Shown here: one piece after another, positions 49,167 to 57,886 of the stretch
How positions within the stretch are numbered: the first letter of the stretch is position 1
Layout of the letters: the number at the start of each line of letters is the position of its first letter
Assembly: GCA_018396705.1 (NCBI GenBank)
Contig: JAGTQZ010000006.1
Coordinates: forward strand, 1 to 64,000
Direction of reading: 5' to 3'
Length of the DNA: 64,000 bases
Origin: Candidatus Bathyarchaeota archaeon
Lineage (GTDB): Archaea > Thermoproteota > Bathyarchaeia > Bathyarchaeales > Bathycorpusculaceae
Notes under the pieces: model-generated
What the model was told of the DNA's origin: nothing
The model's input: only the letters and a program-made list of their open reading frames with translations
Databases searched by the model: none
Program-made: the position numbers and the translations under genes

Positions 49167-50720
49167 ATGCCCAAAACACCAAAAAACACAAAAACAAAAG
49201 AAGAAACAGAATTCGGGGCAATAATAGAAGTAAAAGAAAGAAAGCCAGCAGTCTTCAGAGAAGTATATCCAATACAGGAGCCGTATGTCTACGCGGCAAT
49301 TGTGAAAGATCCGGAGACTCAGAAAACCCGCTATGAAGTCATAGAACCAACCCTCACAAAAGAGGAGGAAGAACACCTAAAAGAAGTCAAAATTATCCTA
49401 ATGGAAGAAATAGATGTAAACCTAAAAGAAATAGAGACGAAGGAAAAAGCCGAACAATACCTCAAAGAGAAAGCAAAACAAGTAATCAAAAAATACCACA
49501 TAAAAATCCCACCGGAATCCGTTGATAAGCTCTTATATTACCTTACAAGGGATTTCATTGGCTACGGCAAAATAGACCCATTAATGAAAGACCATCTTAT
49601 AGAAGATATCTCAGCTGATGGAGTAAACATACCAATATATGTTTGGCATAGAACATACGAGTCGCTTCCAACAAACATAATATTTAAGGATGAGGTGGAA
49701 CTCAATTCGTTCATAATCCGCTTGGCATATTTAGCTGGCAAAAACATTTCAATAGCATCTCCAATTCTGGACGCTTCGCTACCTGACGGAAGCCGCATAC
49801 AACTTACTTACGGAAGCGAGGTGACCAGAAGAGGCTCAACCTTCACTATCCGCCGTTTCAGAGTGGATCCTTTAACAATTTCAGATCTCATAGCCTTTAA
49901 CACGCTTTCCTCGGAGATGGCCGCCTATCTATGGTACGTTATAGAAAACCGTGCATCAGTGCTTGTAGCCGGAGGAATAGCATGTGGAAAAACCACCATG
50001 CTGAATTGCTTGTCCATGTTCATAAAGCCTGAAATGAAAATTGTAAGCGTAGAGGACACTCAGGAGTTGAACTTGCCTCATGAAAACTGGATACCATCCG
50101 TCGTAAGGGAAGGCTTCGGATACGAAAATAAAAGTGCCATAACACTTTTTGACCTTTTGAAGGCAGCTGTAAGACAAAGACCTGACTACATAATCGTGGG
50201 TGAAATCCGAGGAGAAGAAGCCTACACGCTGTTTCAAGCTATGGCAACGGGACATCTTGGAATGTGCACCATCCATGCCGAGTCCGTTGAAGCCGTAATA
50301 AACCGTTTAGAATCCGAGCCTATGAATATTCCAAAGCCGCTCATAGCCATGACTGATTTGATAATGGTTATGACGAGAACAGAAATTGAAGGGAAACCAG
50401 TCAGAAGAACCCTAACAGCAACAGAAGTTGTAGGACTTGACGCTAAAACAGGCAAAATAATGACAGAGGAAGTTTTTCGTTGGAAACCTAAAGAAGACAG
50501 GTTTGAGTTTCTAGGTCACAGCAGCCTCATAGAAGAGCACATCAAAAAGCTTGAACTAAGCGGGGAAGACGTTAGACAGGAACTCCAACGCAGAAAAACC
50601 GTTCTTGAATGGATGGTTAGAAAGGGCATCCGCAGACACACAGAAGTAGCCAACATAATCCGCGAATACTACGCTAATCCAGCAAGAGTTTTCCAAAAAG
50701 CAAGGATGGAACTAGAATGA
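49167..50720 (+). CDS. Type II/IV secretion-pilus assembly ATPase (TadA/GspE-like)
   Basis: The 517-residue hexameric motor extends a type IV pilus-like filament. After a charged N-terminal region (to about 110) comes the N2 domain (GKIDPLMKDHLIEDI). Walker A is GGIACGKTT at about 269-277, with Cys273 where Ser, Thr or Ala is usual. The Asp box is VSVEDTQEL and Walker B is YIIVGEIRGEE (341-351). The His box MATGHLGMCTIHAES follows. The start follows AAGGGGGAAAA. It opens a five-gene operon with two membrane platform proteins and two pilin-like proteins, and its stop overlaps the next start (ATGA). Confidence 0.92.
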   Translation: MPKTPKNTKTKEETEFGAIIEVKERKPAVFREVYPIQEPYVYAAIVKDPETQKTRYEVIEPTLTKEEEEHLKEVKIILMEEIDVNLKEIETKEKAEQYLKEKAKQVIKKYHIKIPPESVDKLLYYLTRDFIGYGKIDPLMKDHLIEDISADGVNIPIYVWHRTYESLPTNIIFKDEVELNSFIIRLAYLAGKNISIASPILDASLPDGSRIQLTYGSEVTRRGSTFTIRRFRVDPLTISDLIAFNTLSSEMAAYLWYVIENRASVLVAGGIACGKTTMLNCLSMFIKPEMKIVSVEDTQELNLPHENWIPSVVREGFGYENKSAITLFDLLKAAVRQRPDYIIVGEIRGEEAYTLFQAMATGHLGMCTIHAESVEAVINRLESEPMNIPKPLIAMTDLIMVMTRTEIEGKPVRRTLTATEVVGLDAKTGKIMTEEVFRWKPKEDRFEFLGHSSLIEEHIKKLELSGEDVRQELQRRKTVLEWMVRKGIRRHTEVANIIREYYANPARVFQKARMELE

Positions 50721-51730
50721 AAAAGGAAAAAATCTCTGAAAAATACAAGAAGCTCTACGCGAGCTTGCTTTCGCAACTGAAATGTTTACTTTCAAAAATC
50801 AATGGAAAAATAAGCGCTGATAAAAGTGAAAGCTTCCGCTTAGAATCTAGAACCCCCAGCCTAGCGTCCCTTGCATATAAATTTATGGGCGAAAAAGTTG
50901 GAAGAGTTCTGCCGCTTTTCTCAGATTTGGATATACATTTGCAAAAAGCTGGGATTAAAACTAATTTTAGAGTTTACGTTAGTTTAACAGTTTTTTCAAC
51001 AATTTTAGTCTCACTTTTGGTGCTTGTTTGTATACCGTACCTGCTTGTCTACGCCTTTCGAGTGCCAGTTCTTCATGCATTGCTATTCGGTTTTGGCGGC
51101 AGTCTATTCGCGGTTGCTTTTTCAATCATCGGATTCTACGTTTATCCAGTCTATCGCGCCGACAAAATTAAGCGAGATTTAGAAGACGAATTGGCCTTTG
51201 CAACGGGGTATATGGCAATCCTTGCAAGCGCGGGTGTTCCACCTGAGAAAATTTTTCATTCATTGTCAAATCTTCCAATACAGTTGGCAGTTTCAGTTGA
51301 AGCTAAAAACATAATCCGCGACGTAAACCTTTTCGGCCTTGACATAATATCAGCATTAGAAAACGCCTCGAGAAAGTCGCCTTCCAAACTGTTCAGCGAA
51401 ATGCTGGAAGGCCTCATATCGACAATACATTCTGGAAGCAACCTCGCCGCATACTTAAGGGAAAGGTCTAAGCAACATATGAAATTGAAGAGGATAAGCC
51501 TCCGAAAGTTTTCAGACACGTTGTCCATTCTCTCAGAGTTCTATGTGGCTTTGCTGGTAACAGGTCCATTACTGCTGATAATCATGCTTGCGGTTATGGC
51601 TATGATGGGTGGTGGAAGCCTAGGCTTTCTGGGTCCAGATTTGCTGCTTAGAATCATCACATACATTGGAATACCCGTAGGTTCAACAATGTTTCTTATA
51701 ATATTGGATTCGGTTTCGCCAAAGTGGTAA
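50717..51730 (+). CDS. Pilus assembly membrane platform protein (TadC/GspF-like), first
   Basis: The 337-residue type II secretion F-domain protein has membrane segments at about 92-118 and 122-145 and two more near the C-terminus (LYVALLVTGPLLLIIMLAVM; TYIGIPVGSTMFLIILD). The cytoplasmic domain has DELAFATGYMAILASAGVPPEKIF, the family signature. It docks the ATPase and pulls pilins from the membrane. It pairs with the second platform gene three bases downstream. Confidence 0.88.
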   Translation: MKKEKISEKYKKLYASLLSQLKCLLSKINGKISADKSESFRLESRTPSLASLAYKFMGEKVGRVLPLFSDLDIHLQKAGIKTNFRVYVSLTVFSTILVSLLVLVCIPYLLVYAFRVPVLHALLFGFGGSLFAVAFSIIGFYVYPVYRADKIKRDLEDELAFATGYMAILASAGVPPEKIFHSLSNLPIQLAVSVEAKNIIRDVNLFGLDIISALENASRKSPSKLFSEMLEGLISTIHSGSNLAAYLRERSKQHMKLKRISLRKFSDTLSILSEFYVALLVTGPLLLIIMLAVMAMMGGGSLGFLGPDLLLRIITYIGIPVGSTMFLIILDSVSPKW

Positions 51731-51733
51731 GCT

Positions 51734-52549
51734 ATGTCAAAGATGGGAAAAACCTTAAAGCGGATCCTGCAGATTGCATCAGCCGTCTTAGCAGCGACTA
51801 TTGTAGTTCTTGGTTTTTTGTCCGCTTGGGGAACCCCAGTTTTCGACGAATTTTTGTTCTTTGCCATCTTGGCCGCTTTCACTCCGCCTACAGTCTTAAG
51901 TTACATTGAATACCAGTGGAAGAAAGCTGTGGACGAACATTTACCAGACCTTTTCAGAAGCATAGTGCAAGCTCAAGAAACCGGCATGACCTTACCCCGC
52001 GCTTTGGAAGAAGCTGCAAAAAGAGATTATGGACCTTTAACGGCTGAACTGCGCAAAATGACTGCACAGATTTCTTGGGGCATGACCCTTGAAGAAGCAT
52101 TAGTGTCCTTTGCAAAGCGAGTTGATACGGTTCTTGTACAGAGAACTGTTCCCCTAATAATTGAGGCCAGCCGTTCTGGCGGATATATAGAGAAGATTTT
52201 TGACCCTATGGGTAAATTTGTACAATCAACACTACTGCTTAACAAAGAGCGCCGTAACAGAACACGCCCATACATCGCAATAATTTATGTAGCTTTCTTT
52301 GTCTTCATATTCACTATCGTACTATTGTTCAAATCTTTCTTTATAGACATACAAGGCTTGCCGTTACTTGGCGCTACTATAATGGCGCCTGAAGAAGTTA
52401 AGCGTTTATTCTTTCACATGACGGTTATCCAGGCCTTTTTCGGAGGCTTAGTAGCGGGCAAAATGGGCGAAGGAACGCTAAGCGCTGGTCTAAAGCACAG
52501 TCTAGCGCTTATGATATGCGGCTACATAGCCCTGAAACTCTTTATGTAG
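51734..52549 (+). CDS. Pilus assembly membrane platform protein (TadC/GspF-like), second
   Basis: The 271-residue partner platform protein carries the F-domain signature PDLFRSIVQAQETGMTLPRA and KMTAQISWGMTLEEALVSFA, with four predicted membrane segments. Archaellum systems and many archaeal pili use one FlaJ-like protein with two F domains, whereas Tad systems use two separate proteins (TadB, TadC). This arrangement is Tad-like. Confidence 0.88.
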   Translation: MSKMGKTLKRILQIASAVLAATIVVLGFLSAWGTPVFDEFLFFAILAAFTPPTVLSYIEYQWKKAVDEHLPDLFRSIVQAQETGMTLPRALEEAAKRDYGPLTAELRKMTAQISWGMTLEEALVSFAKRVDTVLVQRTVPLIIEASRSGGYIEKIFDPMGKFVQSTLLLNKERRNRTRPYIAIIYVAFFVFIFTIVLLFKSFFIDIQGLPLLGATIMAPEEVKRLFFHMTVIQAFFGGLVAGKMGEGTLSAGLKHSLALMICGYIALKLFM

Positions 52550-52565: not shown

Positions 52566-52988
52566 ATGCGCTTGTTTTGGAGATTTTCCATAAATAAAAG
52601 GGCTGTGAGCCCGGTTCTCAGCAATCTTTTGCTTATGGTTGTGGCTGTAGCCGCCATGTCAATAGCAGCCACGGCCACGTATGTTGTTACAACAAACCTT
52701 AGGGAAACTATGGGCGAACGCTTTGTAGTAGAGGACGTTTGGTTCAACAATGCGACCGGTGTCAGCTGCATAAGCATTTACATACGTAACACCGGAAAAA
52801 GCGCCATCACCATTTCAGCAGTTTACGTAAACAACACTCCTGCATATGGATTTGCAAAACTTGATTTAGGGTTGGGCGACCATGGATGGCTTAACATAAC
52901 ATATCCTTGGGAAAAAGGTCACGTATATTACATAAACGTCGTAACCTCAAGGGGGAATCACATTGAGGGCTATTACAAGGCACCTTAA
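52566..52988 (+). CDS. Small type IV pilin-like protein with class III signal peptide
   Basis: The 140-residue protein has a short basic leader and prepilin cleavage region NKRAVSPVLSN (cut after Arg12), then the hydrophobic N-terminal helix LLLMVVAVAAMSIAATATYV. The mature C-terminal domain (about 55-140) is a small beta sandwich ending INVVTSRGNHIEGYY. It is probably the main or an accessory subunit of the filament. The next gene overlaps its end by 26 bases. Confidence 0.85.
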   Translation: MRLFWRFSINKRAVSPVLSNLLLMVVAVAAMSIAATATYVVTTNLRETMGERFVVEDVWFNNATGVSCISIYIRNTGKSAITISAVYVNNTPAYGFAKLDLGLGDHGWLNITYPWEKGHVYYINVVTSRGNHIEGYYKAP

Positions 52989-55626
52989 AAAAATAAAAAG
53001 CAACAGAGACGGTGTAAGCAACGTCCTAGTTGTAATGCTAAGCCTAATCCTAATAACCGTCATAGTTGCAAACGTGGTTATATGGAGCCAACAGATGAAT
53101 CAATTGGACATTGAAAGAATGCATGAATCAGTAAGCATAACAAATGCTGGTCACCTAACACATTCAGAATGGTTTACAGCTCAAAACGAGTTCTCATGGA
53201 GTGGGGGGAATAGAACGGGTGGTTCCTACGTTGATACAAAAACCATGGATGATCAACATGAAAGTTTCATAGAGGGACTCCAAACAATCTACAGTTTCAC
53301 CGCCAACGATGAGACATTCGTTGATCAACAGAGCAACGTCGACAGCTTGAACGATATTGGGACTCACAGTAATTTCAACGCCATGAAAGCTGGACCAGAC
53401 GCGGTTTACGACACTCTAACTGAACAAATAGTCACCATTGAAGACCCAGCTTCCAAAACAAACGCCATAATTGCTTACAGGAGCAACACTGGAACATACA
53501 CGCTTAGCTCGCCTAAAAACAGAATATGGACTGGCAATTCCGCCTTATGGGGTAGCGAGGTTGAAATGCCAACTGCCGGAAGCCCAGTCCGCTGGGTTAG
53601 AAGCGAATACTGTCCGGTAAAGTCCAGAGGCTACGAAGTAATCGTTATGACAATTTCGGATGACCGTCACTATGACCTTTACATTTGGAACGGCTCTCAA
53701 TGGCTCGTATTCAATAACATAGGCTACTTTGCGGGCACAACATTCTACAGAGGCTTCGACATAGCCTACGAACATGCCTCTGGAAGAGCCTTAATAGTGT
53801 ATTCACGTGGAACCGCAACCGAAGGACAAGAAATCGGCTACAGAATATGGGATGGAACCACATTATCACAAGAATATTTGCTTGGCTCACCATACACCAC
53901 TGGCATAGTATATTGGATTAACTTAGCTTCATGTCCCGGAACACGAGCCGGAACAGCAGACGACAACGAAATCGCCATGATTTTCATCGACTCCAACGCA
54001 GATGTTTTCGGCTACATTTGGACTGGCTCAAGTTGGAGTGCAATGGGACAAACGGCTGTTTGGGATGCTACAGCAGCCATAGCCACAGAAGAATGCATAG
54101 CAGTCGCCTACGAACAGCTAAGCGGAAGAGCCATGTTCATTTGGGGAGACGCCACAGCAACAGACAACTATTACAGAATATGGGACGGCACAACCCTTAC
54201 GGCAGCCACGCTTCTAGACATAGCTGCTCAAGGTGGATTAACAAACTGGGTTACATTAAAATCTCAACCTAACTCTAACGGTTTGCTTTATTTGGTGGTG
54301 GATGCAGGTAGCGACTTAAACACTGCATATTGGAACGGGAATTCATGGACGGTTCACACGGAACACGACGCTGCTGTTGACACGCATGCTGCAAGATGCG
54401 CAGATTTCGCTTGGGACCCTGTTGGAAGCACTGGCTTACTCGTCTGGGGCACCGCAGCTAACAGCATATCCCGCAAAACGTTCACACCGCCGAACACGTG
54501 GAGCGCCGCAACCACGGCAACCGCTGCTGGAACGCATCCATGGGTTCAGTTGCGAACAAACCCACGTTACGTCAGCGGAGACAAATACGTTATAGGTGCA
54601 GACCTAAACAGCAACTTTGACATTGGCTCAATAACATGGGACGGCACAACGTTCACCATAACTGAAGGTGTGATAACAACCGACACCACGGTTTCAACAT
54701 ACGAATGCTTTGAAATAGCATTCATGAATTTTGGACCTCTAACCTTAACATATCAACTTGACTTGGAAGTGCAGTGGGTAAACGCCAATTACACCAGACC
54801 CAACGAATACCTATGCATATACGCCGGCACATTAAACTCTGAAAGCCTACAAGTTGACGTTTGGACTGGTTCTTCATGGGTTACAATTATAAACGCTCTA
54901 ACCACTGGATGGAACAACGTTTCAGTCTCAGACTACTTAACATCAAGCACATTCACAATAAGATTCAGAGACACAGAAACATTAGAGGACAAAACACAGA
55001 GCAGCTGGCAAATAGACTGTGCATTACTACACACGTGGGAAACAAGCTTGAGGAGAAGCTACCGCCTCGAATTGTTTAACTCCTTTACAATAGACTTGTC
55101 AATTTATCCACTAGATCGCATTTACGGCGTTGAAATAGTGGTAAGATATAAGGTTTCAGAAACTAATGAACGCTGGCTTATAAAAGCTTATGACTGGTCT
55201 TCTGGAAACTTTAGTGATGAAGGCTTTAACATTACAGAAGGGAGTAAGCCTACAAGCCATGAATGGAACAATTACGCCGTAAGCATAACCGAAAATTGGA
55301 CTAGATACATACAGAGCAACGGCACAGTCCAAATAATGTTCTGTGACGCAGACTTAAGTGAAGATCAGATTTTTGTCGACATCGATTTCATAGGCGTCCG
55401 TGTTATCCTCAATGGCATATTCTTAGAACTGAAAAACAGTGGGGCTACAACAGCCCATGTAGTAGCCATATGGGTTATGAACACGACTCACCACATGCGT
55501 TTCGACTTAGACTTTTTCATAAATCCCGGAGAAAGCGCAACTCTCAGGATAGTTACCATAACCCCACCGACTGGTGACTTAACAGTTAAGATTGTCACTG
55601 AAAGGGGTAACATAGACGCTTTTTAA
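52963..55626 (+). CDS. Giant pilin-like adhesin with nested beta-sandwich and about eight-bladed propeller
   Basis: This 887-residue protein starts at TTG 52963 behind GGGGGAA. Residues 1-65 are a prepilin N-terminus (RDGVSNVLVV, then hydrophobic LSLILITVIVANVVI). Residues 816-887 (LELKNSGATT to KIVTERGNIDAF) resemble the C-terminal domain of the small pilin upstream. Between them, residues 110-155 and 595-695 look like two halves of one beta-sandwich module (DIGTHSNFNAMKAGPDAVYD, then LDLEVQWVNANY and SSWQIDCALLH). Residues about 158-590 hold repeated W-x-G blades: IWTGNSALW, IWNGSQW, YRIWDGTTL, YIWTGSSW, YRIWDGTTL, AYWNGNSW, the weaker TPPNTWS and ITWDGTTF. A second sandwich domain covers about 697-815. 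Likely a filament-displayed adhesin; the ligand is unknown. Confidence 0.75.
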   Translation: MRAITRHLKKIKSNRDGVSNVLVVMLSLILITVIVANVVIWSQQMNQLDIERMHESVSITNAGHLTHSEWFTAQNEFSWSGGNRTGGSYVDTKTMDDQHESFIEGLQTIYSFTANDETFVDQQSNVDSLNDIGTHSNFNAMKAGPDAVYDTLTEQIVTIEDPASKTNAIIAYRSNTGTYTLSSPKNRIWTGNSALWGSEVEMPTAGSPVRWVRSEYCPVKSRGYEVIVMTISDDRHYDLYIWNGSQWLVFNNIGYFAGTTFYRGFDIAYEHASGRALIVYSRGTATEGQEIGYRIWDGTTLSQEYLLGSPYTTGIVYWINLASCPGTRAGTADDNEIAMIFIDSNADVFGYIWTGSSWSAMGQTAVWDATAAIATEECIAVAYEQLSGRAMFIWGDATATDNYYRIWDGTTLTAATLLDIAAQGGLTNWVTLKSQPNSNGLLYLVVDAGSDLNTAYWNGNSWTVHTEHDAAVDTHAARCADFAWDPVGSTGLLVWGTAANSISRKTFTPPNTWSAATTATAAGTHPWVQLRTNPRYVSGDKYVIGADLNSNFDIGSITWDGTTFTITEGVITTDTTVSTYECFEIAFMNFGPLTLTYQLDLEVQWVNANYTRPNEYLCIYAGTLNSESLQVDVWTGSSWVTIINALTTGWNNVSVSDYLTSSTFTIRFRDTETLEDKTQSSWQIDCALLHTWETSLRRSYRLELFNSFTIDLSIYPLDRIYGVEIVVRYKVSETNERWLIKAYDWSSGNFSDEGFNITEGSKPTSHEWNNYAVSITENWTRYIQSNGTVQIMFCDADLSEDQIFVDIDFIGVRVILNGIFLELKNSGATTAHVVAIWVMNTTHHMRFDLDFFINPGESATLRIVTITPPTGDLTVKIVTERGNIDAF

Positions 55627-55634
55627 CTTGCGCG

Positions 55635-56630
55635 TTAACTCTTGCCTAATTTATCTTTTAGGGCTTTTATCACTTCTTTGGCGTCTTTAGCCTCTATCAC
55701 TTTGATGTTGTAGAGTTCAGCCATTTTTTTCGCGTTTTCGCTTAATTTTGGAATAGCCACTAGAAAGGCGTGTTCTGGTGAAACATCATACATTTTAGCG
55801 AAAAGCGCTATGACCGGCTGTTCTATCACAGCGTTTTCTGTGGCTATGGCCACGTCCATGACGACTACTTTTCCCGTTTTGCCCCCTCTGTGGGCGGCTA
55901 TGTCGAACATGTGATTTGCGCCGGACTTACCCTTGATAAAGGCTGGAGCCTCCACTTCAAACCCGCTTTCGACTAGAAACTCCCTTATTGGGGCAACGAA
56001 AATCCATCCAGCGGTTATTTCGCCTTTTACATTTTCATTTAAAGTGTAAGCGTAGACATCTCGTATTTCAACATCTTCAAATGTAAGGTCGGATTGGCAG
56101 TTCCTGCAAAAATGTCTTGTAACGGGTATGTCAAAGCTTTTGCCGCATTCTTTGCATGTGCACCATATCCCAGCTTTCCGATGATCAACGTCCGGCTTTT
56201 TCAGTTCCTCGTGACATTTAGGGCATACAAGTTTTCCGTCTCTCCGGAAGTTTTCCTCCAGACCCATATACCCACATTTAACATGTTCTATTAGGGAACC
56301 TTTTTGAATATTGAAGGATTTGCAGTATGGGCAACAGTAGCGAGTGGAAACGTTTTGCGAACCGCAACTTGGACAGTATATGATTTTATCGTAGAGTCTT
56401 CTTTCAAGGACGCCAACCTCATATAGCTTGTTAAGGAAATCTTCAGCTCCGGAGGTTTCACCCAAAATCGCTTCTATTTCTGGATACCTGTAACCCAACT
56501 TTGGATCGAAGAATGGTTTAAGCTCAATTATTTCCCCGCTTAGAAATTTGCTTAAAAAAACTTGAACAGCTCGTTCCTTGTACAGTTCAAGCCGCTCAGA
56601 TTTTCCAGCTTTTAGCATTAAGGTTCCCAT
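55635..56630 (-). CDS. Multi-zinc-ribbon protein (TackOD1-like) with C-terminal nuclease-like fold
   Basis: The 331-residue protein has an N-terminal helical/winged part, then zinc-binding pairs: CPSCGSQ with CCPYCKS, VKCGYMG with CPKCHEEL, and CTCKECGKSF with FCRNCQSD. This order resembles the TackOD1 output domain of TACK archaea. The C-terminal ~110 residues (NHMFDIAAHR, KVVVMDVAIA, EHAFLVAIPKL, YNIKVIEAKD) follow the core of restriction-endonuclease-like folds, but the E-x-K is replaced by D-x-A. It may be a nucleic-acid-binding or signalling effector. No kinase or receiver gene is adjacent. Confidence 0.6.
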   Translation of the reverse strand: MGTLMLKAGKSERLELYKERAVQVFLSKFLSGEIIELKPFFDPKLGYRYPEIEAILGETSGAEDFLNKLYEVGVLERRLYDKIIYCPSCGSQNVSTRYCCPYCKSFNIQKGSLIEHVKCGYMGLEENFRRDGKLVCPKCHEELKKPDVDHRKAGIWCTCKECGKSFDIPVTRHFCRNCQSDLTFEDVEIRDVYAYTLNENVKGEITAGWIFVAPIREFLVESGFEVEAPAFIKGKSGANHMFDIAAHRGGKTGKVVVMDVAIATENAVIEQPVIALFAKMYDVSPEHAFLVAIPKLSENAKKMAELYNIKVIEAKDAKEVIKALKDKLGKS

Positions 56631-57022: not shown

Positions 57023-57886
57023 ATGATGGTGGTGGTTGCGACGCAAAAGCCTCGCTTGGGGTTAGTGTTTCGTTTGTCGACATTAAAAGGTTTTGCGGCA
57101 CTACTATTGTTTATTGTCTCAGCCGCCATAGTTGAATATTTAGTCGTCGCTTATGCCGAAAGTCTAGGAGTGAAAGACGAAACTTGTTTCCAGATTCCAT
57201 GGCTAGGCTTCACGATTAGCCCATTATTCCATTTAGTTCCGATTGTAACGGTCATTGTACTTGCTGCAAGCTGGACTTGCATGGTAAAATACATCGCCAT
57301 GAAGGCGACAGAAAAAACTAAACTAACTGCAAAAAAGGAAAAAGTTCCAAAGGGAAAAAGAATTGGGCTGAAAGAAGGGATAAGCAGGATTTTAGGCAAA
57401 ATAAAGTCTGGATTGCTGAAAGTGAAAAGCATTGCTTATATATGGGATAAGTTAAGTTTTGCAAAAGCTGCTGTGAAGAGCGCTACGGTAATATTGTTGG
57501 CTTTTCTTGCATTAATTCTGCTAGTTTCGGCTTTAATGAATCCCTGGCTTGTTTACGGAACCTTTGTGAAACTCTACCAAGGCAACCAACAATTGCTTGA
57601 GCTTGTAAAGGCAACTAACATCGCTTTGCAGGGATTCGCTGAAAGAGTTACACCGATTGGATGGATATGCTTCGCAGTAGACAACGTCATTAAAGCCGCT
57701 GCGCCTAGCATTAGGGGTTTCGCTTCAACTTTGGAAGCGCTGGCAAAGCCTCTGGCGGATTTGCCTCCGGCCAGCAAGTACTTAGTTTTCCAGAACATTG
57801 CATCTTGGGTCTCCGCTTTGGCTGTTCTAGCTTATGGAGCTTATATGCGTAAAAGTTATCGCTATAGAAAGGTAAAGAAAGTTTAG
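57023..57886 (+). CDS. Four-helix membrane protein of unknown function
   Basis: The 287-residue protein has hydrophobic segments at about 23-46, 63-87, 150-176 and 262-277, separated by a strongly basic loop (about 95-140, rich in KK and GK). Its tail RKSYRYRKVKKV is basic too. I recognise no family. An A/T box, ATTTTTTAATTT near 56962, lies upstream. The next gene, endonuclease IV-like, follows by 9 bases and may be co-transcribed. Confidence 0.65.
   Translation: MMVVVATQKPRLGLVFRLSTLKGFAALLLFIVSAAIVEYLVVAYAESLGVKDETCFQIPWLGFTISPLFHLVPIVTVIVLAASWTCMVKYIAMKATEKTKLTAKKEKVPKGKRIGLKEGISRILGKIKSGLLKVKSIAYIWDKLSFAKAAVKSATVILLAFLALILLVSALMNPWLVYGTFVKLYQGNQQLLELVKATNIALQGFAERVTPIGWICFAVDNVIKAAAPSIRGFASTLEALAKPLADLPPASKYLVFQNIASWVSALAVLAYGAYMRKSYRYRKVKKV

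Follow-up and report, generated by a model that had tools for sequence, protein, structure and literature searches.

The pilus locus of this Candidatus Bathyarchaeota archaeon raises the question of how a pilin of 887 amino acids, encoded directly behind one of 140, can still serve as a filament subunit, and of what its additional residues do. The gene closes a conserved operon for an archaeal type IV pilus in a genome of 1.7 Mb and lies in the stretch of 64,000 nucleotides analysed here (the window). It begins with a TTG codon and overlaps the small pilin gene by 26 nt. The operon and the parts of its last gene product are the following.

49167–50720, + strand: pilus assembly ATPase (T2SSE; PF00437, E 1.2e-37), syntenic in relatives
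50717–51730, + strand: platform protein 1 (T2SSF/TadC-like; PF00482, E 2e-15)
51734–52549, + strand: platform protein 2 (T2SSF/TadC-like; PF00482, E 2.9e-17)
52566–52988, + strand: small pilin of 140 aa, a constant companion of the variable pilin
52963–55626, + strand: variable pilin of 887 aa, holding three insertions nested in one another
52963–53157, + strand: pilin, first part (residues 1–65), prepilin signal and helix; profile PN at 9–60, 82 bits; continuous with 816–887 in naked orthologues
53158–53280, + strand: sandwich A, first part (66–106); A1 at 68–104, 55 bits; contiguous with A2 in orthologues of about 300 aa
53293–53430, + strand: sandwich B, first part (111–156); B1 at 119–154, 70 bits
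53455–54729, + strand: eight-bladed lectin-like propeller (165–589), from profile, AF2 model and fold matches; stand-alone in L089 and L086/L087
54745–55047, + strand: sandwich B, second part (595–695); B2 at 596–693, 145 bits; sole copy in this genome
55051–55407, + strand: sandwich A, second part (697–815); A2 at 700–814, 156 bits; PF14741, E 0.0013
55408–55623, + strand: pilin, second part (816–887); PC at 818–886, 94 bits; matches small pilins, E 2.8e-13

The order EcfT–SIS–ATPase–TadC–TadC–small pilin–variable pilin–TackOD1 (convergent)–EMC3-like is widely kept in relatives, and the small pilin lies immediately upstream of the variable pilin in 60 of the 72 loci, as counted from the locus listing. 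Downstream, 55635–56630 (− strand) encodes a zinc-ribbon protein with a TackOD1 domain that is convergent to the pilus operon in most loci of the order, possibly a regulator or a case of mere conserved synteny. It is followed at 57023–57886 (+ strand) by a membrane protein of 287 aa with a faint likeness to EMC3/TMCO1 (E 0.09), whose place beside the pilus locus is also kept in relatives.

Both Ends of the Variable Pilin Are Those of a Pilin

The claim of an earlier note that the termini match a pilin is confirmed by the prepilin signal, the helix and the naked orthologues. The N-terminus carries a class III signal with a charged stretch, a Gly at the cut between G17 and V18, and a hydrophobic helix (KSNRDG↓VSNVLVVMLSL), which occupies residues 19–53 in the AF2 model, while naked orthologues of 142–147 aa match both ends of the 887-aa protein. 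The likeness of residues 816–887 to the small pilin, also proposed there, holds as well, the two profiles aligning end to end (hhalign probability 98), with an E value that is optimistic because the small-pilin set was gathered with the same iterated profile. Moreover, the profile of the naked pilins matches the solved filament subunit 8fk7 from end to end (E 2e-10), and this sequence alignment places the predicted insertion point at the turn that joins strands one and two of the pilin domain.

The genome contains one detected prepilin peptidase (Peptidase_A24 plus Arc_PepC_II, in a frame of 285 aa, G000:C4:219833-220573), encoded on a different contig from the operon. The signal, the operon with its ATPase and TadC-like proteins, the peptidase and a small beta-domain are all those of a predicted archaeal type IV pilin, and the joining of this pilin to domains that are not specific to pilus biology makes it a candidate modular one. 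No match to Pfam Pilin_N (PF07790) occurs anywhere in the genome; this family represents one subgroup of pilins and is no prerequisite for being a pilin.

Three Nested Insertions at One Syntenic Slot

Half-domain profiles were built for the pilin ends, for sandwiches A and B, for a third sandwich, C, which occurs in relatives, and for the propeller. They give the domain order PN-A1-B1-PROP-B2-A2-PC, in which the pilin (1–65 and 816–887) encloses sandwich A (66–106 and 697–815), which encloses sandwich B (111–156 and 595–695), which in turn encloses the propeller (165–589). This order supports the proposed plan of a pilin split by a sandwich that is in turn split by a W-x-G propeller, as do the propeller modelled by AF2 from 24 sequences and the naked and one-layer orthologues. 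However, two nested insertions had been counted where there are three, the segments 66–106 and 697–815 being a further inserted sandwich. That sandwich A is itself an insertion follows from the naked pilins, present in eight genomes, in which the equivalent of residues 1–66 runs directly into that of 816–887.

Sandwich A corresponds to Pfam GH114_assoc (PF14741), which scores above cut-off in relatives and only at the E value listed in the 887-aa protein. Its homology to C has moderate support (hhalign E 4e-5, probability 70); homology of B to A or C is unsupported (E 0.021 and 0.0061, respectively). The two halves of B had been taken for one split sandwich, and they do occur as an ordered pair in many other proteins, but as a contiguous module they were never seen, the gap being at least 140 aa in 39 pairs; a contiguous homologue was likewise sought among the fetched loci, and none was found.

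To follow the insertions, 163 genomes of the order were searched, 106 of which gave matches, and pilin loci were fetched from many of these. A scan of genome contigs with the 887-aa protein alone as query returned no relatives, and viral contigs scanned with the B and A-plus-pilin profiles gave no match. At the same slot in related Bathyarchaeia, the variable pilin ranges from the naked forms through pilins with A of about 300 aa up to a protein of 976 aa. Twelve orthologues of about 290–320 aa align end to end with residues 1–112 joined to 690–887, which puts the insertion point relative to these pilin-plus-A forms at about 105/697; in 11 of the 12, from 11 genomes, A is empty, with 1–8 aa between A1 and A2. 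Other orthologues carry differing inserts of roughly 150–660 aa at this same site.

Complete relatives have balanced brackets of the forms pilin>A, pilin>A>C>x, pilin>C>B>x, pilin>A>C>B>x (L033, L042) and pilin>C>B>B>x (L079), and, over all fetched proteins, paired sandwiches are nested in 48 cases and tandem in one; most of the exceptions are truncated at contig ends, masked in part, or have one half split or undetected. The nesting is confirmed without any structure, because naked and one-layer orthologues occupy the same locus. In all fetched loci, B and C always hold cargo (smallest gaps of 140 aa and 154 aa, respectively), while A is often empty, and B and C may exist solely as cargo carriers.

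Nested sandwiches (C>B>C, B>B and B>C) also occur in other surface proteins (L101, L106, L095, L103, L118), so that recursive insertion is a property of the sandwiches that extends beyond pilins. At residues 402–551 of the L042 protein, one B sandwich has a second insertion, a LamG domain, in another loop besides that of the main cargo.

A Propeller with a Lectin-like Fold

The innermost insert had been described as a W-x-G propeller of about eight blades, which is borne out by the motifs at 189, 242, 296, 353, 407, 457 and 559, plus W513, with a spacing of about 53 aa, and by eight blades in the AF2 model. A single-sequence prediction of the 887-aa protein was unusable (pLDDT 36), and the model used here is based on the 24-sequence alignment, the depth of which lies mostly on the propeller, with only two or three sequences over the pilin and A parts. 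It reaches a pLDDT of 72.9 overall and mostly 85–95 over residues 165–589, with a pTM of 0.56. The W-x-G motifs fall on matching strands, and the last blade combines strands 168–190 with strand 583–587, which, read from strand order without coordinates, looks like a velcro closure. Structure prediction therefore upholds the propeller with confidence but not the nesting of A1 and B1, since residues 47–162, i.e., most of both, have a pLDDT below 50 and the model cannot display A and B closing around their inserts.

The top PDB fold matches of the propeller are PLL, PHL, BP39L and AAL-type lectins (E about 1e-10 to 1e-8), and the best 29 are all lectins of the PLL/AAL kind, which assigns the propeller to this fold class with a different number of blades. 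Sialidase structures appear further down the list with poor superposition, and a sialidase identity is disfavoured by this ranking. Searches of PDB sequences with the 887-aa protein or the A8 profile gave no meaningful match; the NCBIfam model beta_propeller_lectin does not match the 887-aa protein and is reached by a single related propeller, L089, with 21.5 bits against a cut-off of 200; and Pfam and NCBIfam scans matched no enzyme family. From its fold the propeller may bind sugar, but counting against this are the identity of about 10% to its best structural matches and the eight blades instead of the seven of PLL, as described for that family (PMC6943638), or the six of AAL, as given in the PDB entry title. 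A role as an adhesin is plausible from the modelled lectin-like fold. Related propellers (L128–L153) were also observed in large proteins of Elusimicrobia, Caldiserica, Patescibacteria, Woesearchaeota and others, without a named family.

Exchange of Heads and Shells

Sixty-seven orthologues display 24 combinations of shell and cargo, with 13 innermost cargo clusters, and several clusters recur in more than one shell: X1 in A>C, A>C>B and C>B>B; X4 in C, A>C and C>B; and X5 in A, C>B and A>C>B. The propeller type of the 887-aa pilin is found within A>B in that protein, within A>C in L031, and in tandem behind an uninterrupted pilin in G157 (L110/L170). Its nearest relatives are the propellers of pilins L031 (61% identity) and L032, both housed in C and not in B. 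Within the genus of the 887-aa pilin the cargo differs, being the propeller, another insert (G077) or a DUF2341 protein (G078/G079), with an identity of 59–66% in the N-terminal pilin part. Other cargo in relatives comprises LamG (L042) and DUF2341 (L068, L077, L168). On a machinery tree built from the ATPase and both platform proteins of 41 loci, the shell must have changed 15 times or more, the cargo 20 times or more and the combination 25 times or more, these counts being raw minima.

We regard it as an even proposition that the pilin, like every sandwich inserted into it, has a recursive cassette site in the loop that follows its first strand and takes up new domains there again and again. 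Lineages would then swap glycan-binding heads, and even the shells enclosing a head that stays, without giving up the filament subunit. If so, the pilus of this bathyarchaeial order would serve recognition and evolve in the manner of the tips of phage tail fibres. Nesting is a natural route by which a small filament subunit comes to bear a very large head. Since forms with no layer, one layer, two layers and more all occur at one locus, the steps are directly comparable, and it becomes testable whether the exchange of pilus heads is how uncultured archaea select surfaces or partners. Such pilins are easily missed: in the scanned proteins, no Pfam or NCBIfam model exceeds its cut-off on the pilin part, on B or C, or on the propeller.

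Probable Function of the Variable Pilin

The variable pilin is probably a filament subunit that displays an exchangeable, predicted glycan-binding head from one loop, with the pilus as display platform. The prepilin peptidase would cut after G17, and the N-terminal helix would polymerise as in other pilins. The nested stack, an architecture shown by comparison of orthologues, emerges in the order A, B and propeller at a point that alignment places in the first beta-turn within the small pilin domain, and each insert leaves the loop after the first half of its host, so that every host could still close. The outermost, lectin-like propeller would probably bind a glycan on a surface, a polymer or a partner cell. 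The distribution of other cargo at the same site across the order shows that heads are exchanged and the pilus core kept, by a molecular mechanism that is itself conjectural. The protein is best read as a recognition subunit of the pilus, because an ordinary small-pilin form exists, the head is lectin-like, and it is exchanged with LamG, DUF2341 and others.

The variable pilin may be built in regularly and often together with the small pilin, giving a shaft studded with propellers all along its length and not a single one at the tip, as could be expected from an operon with only two pilin genes, like that of the Ups pili, where UpsA and UpsB are thought to be the major subunits of mixed pili (PMC7064770), and from naked forms that are ordinary filament-sized pilins. 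We hold this possible but rather doubtful, as a shaft would hardly have room for small pilins with heads of roughly 750 residues each, and the comparable bulk of ComZ and PilB was judged to fit the tip only (PMC6561018, PMC8179133); the size of the head favours the tip. It is unlikely that the system is instead a secretion-type pseudopilus, with the propeller as a glycan-degrading enzyme or a substrate holder rather than an adhesin. Such a device would fit the low-ranking sialidase structures in the fold list and the inserted domain of GspK from type II secretion (PMC8179133), but the best fold matches are lectins, enzyme families are absent from the Pfam and NCBIfam results, and the cargo of relatives consists of LamG and DUF2341.

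The nested architecture itself could be questioned if the protein were a tandem surface protein with a pilin-like signal, in which similar repeats happen to follow one another in this order. One relative does have a tandem form (L110/L170, pilin then propeller) and the model leaves 47–162 unresolved, but such an arrangement is contradicted by the orthologues with no or one layer at this locus, by sharp junctions and by the 48:1 ratio of nested to tandem relations, and is highly improbable.

Relation to Known Pilins and Adhesins

Modular pilins, as well as insertions of single domains into the pilin sheet (PilB, ComZ, GspK), are already known. In bacteria, modular type IV pilins are widespread, with more than 1,200 proteins and 264 architectures reported in PMC8179133, whose text does not contain the word 'Archaea'. 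PilB and PilC of Streptococcus sanguinis, described there, likewise present a bulky binding module on the filament; however, their module follows the pilin, whereas that of the 887-aa protein interrupts it and is itself interrupted twice. ComZ of Thermus and GspK share a large domain inserted in the pilin fold and a probable location at the tip, but with one level of insertion versus three here (PMC6561018, PMC8179133), and the ComZ insert lies between the penultimate and last strands instead of between the first ones (PMC6561018). The portions consulted of both papers describe no cargo exchange at one locus for ComZ or GspK. Nesting to a depth of three or four levels at one exchangeable site appears to be undescribed in the open literature searched.

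Among archaea, the closest functional precedent is UpsA of the Ups pili of Sulfolobales, which also belongs to an operon with two pilins and contains a poorly conserved region proposed to bind species-specific glycans (PMC7064770). UpsA varies by a stretch of about 15–20 residues, in contrast to the whole domains that distinguish the pilins studied here. The naked forms resemble UpsA weakly, with a best E of 6.6e-6 among eight members, and L164 reaches 22.9 bits, below the NCBIfam equivalog cut-off of 130.

The PilY1/PilC tip adhesins are another case of a propeller on type IV pili; PilY1 is not a pilin. In a census of archaeal pili, the text of which contains neither 'insertion' nor 'propeller', Makarova et al. 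2016 (PMC4858521) placed DUF2341 in PilY adhesins and in archaeal pilus loci, and this same domain recurs as cargo in relatives of the 887-aa pilin.
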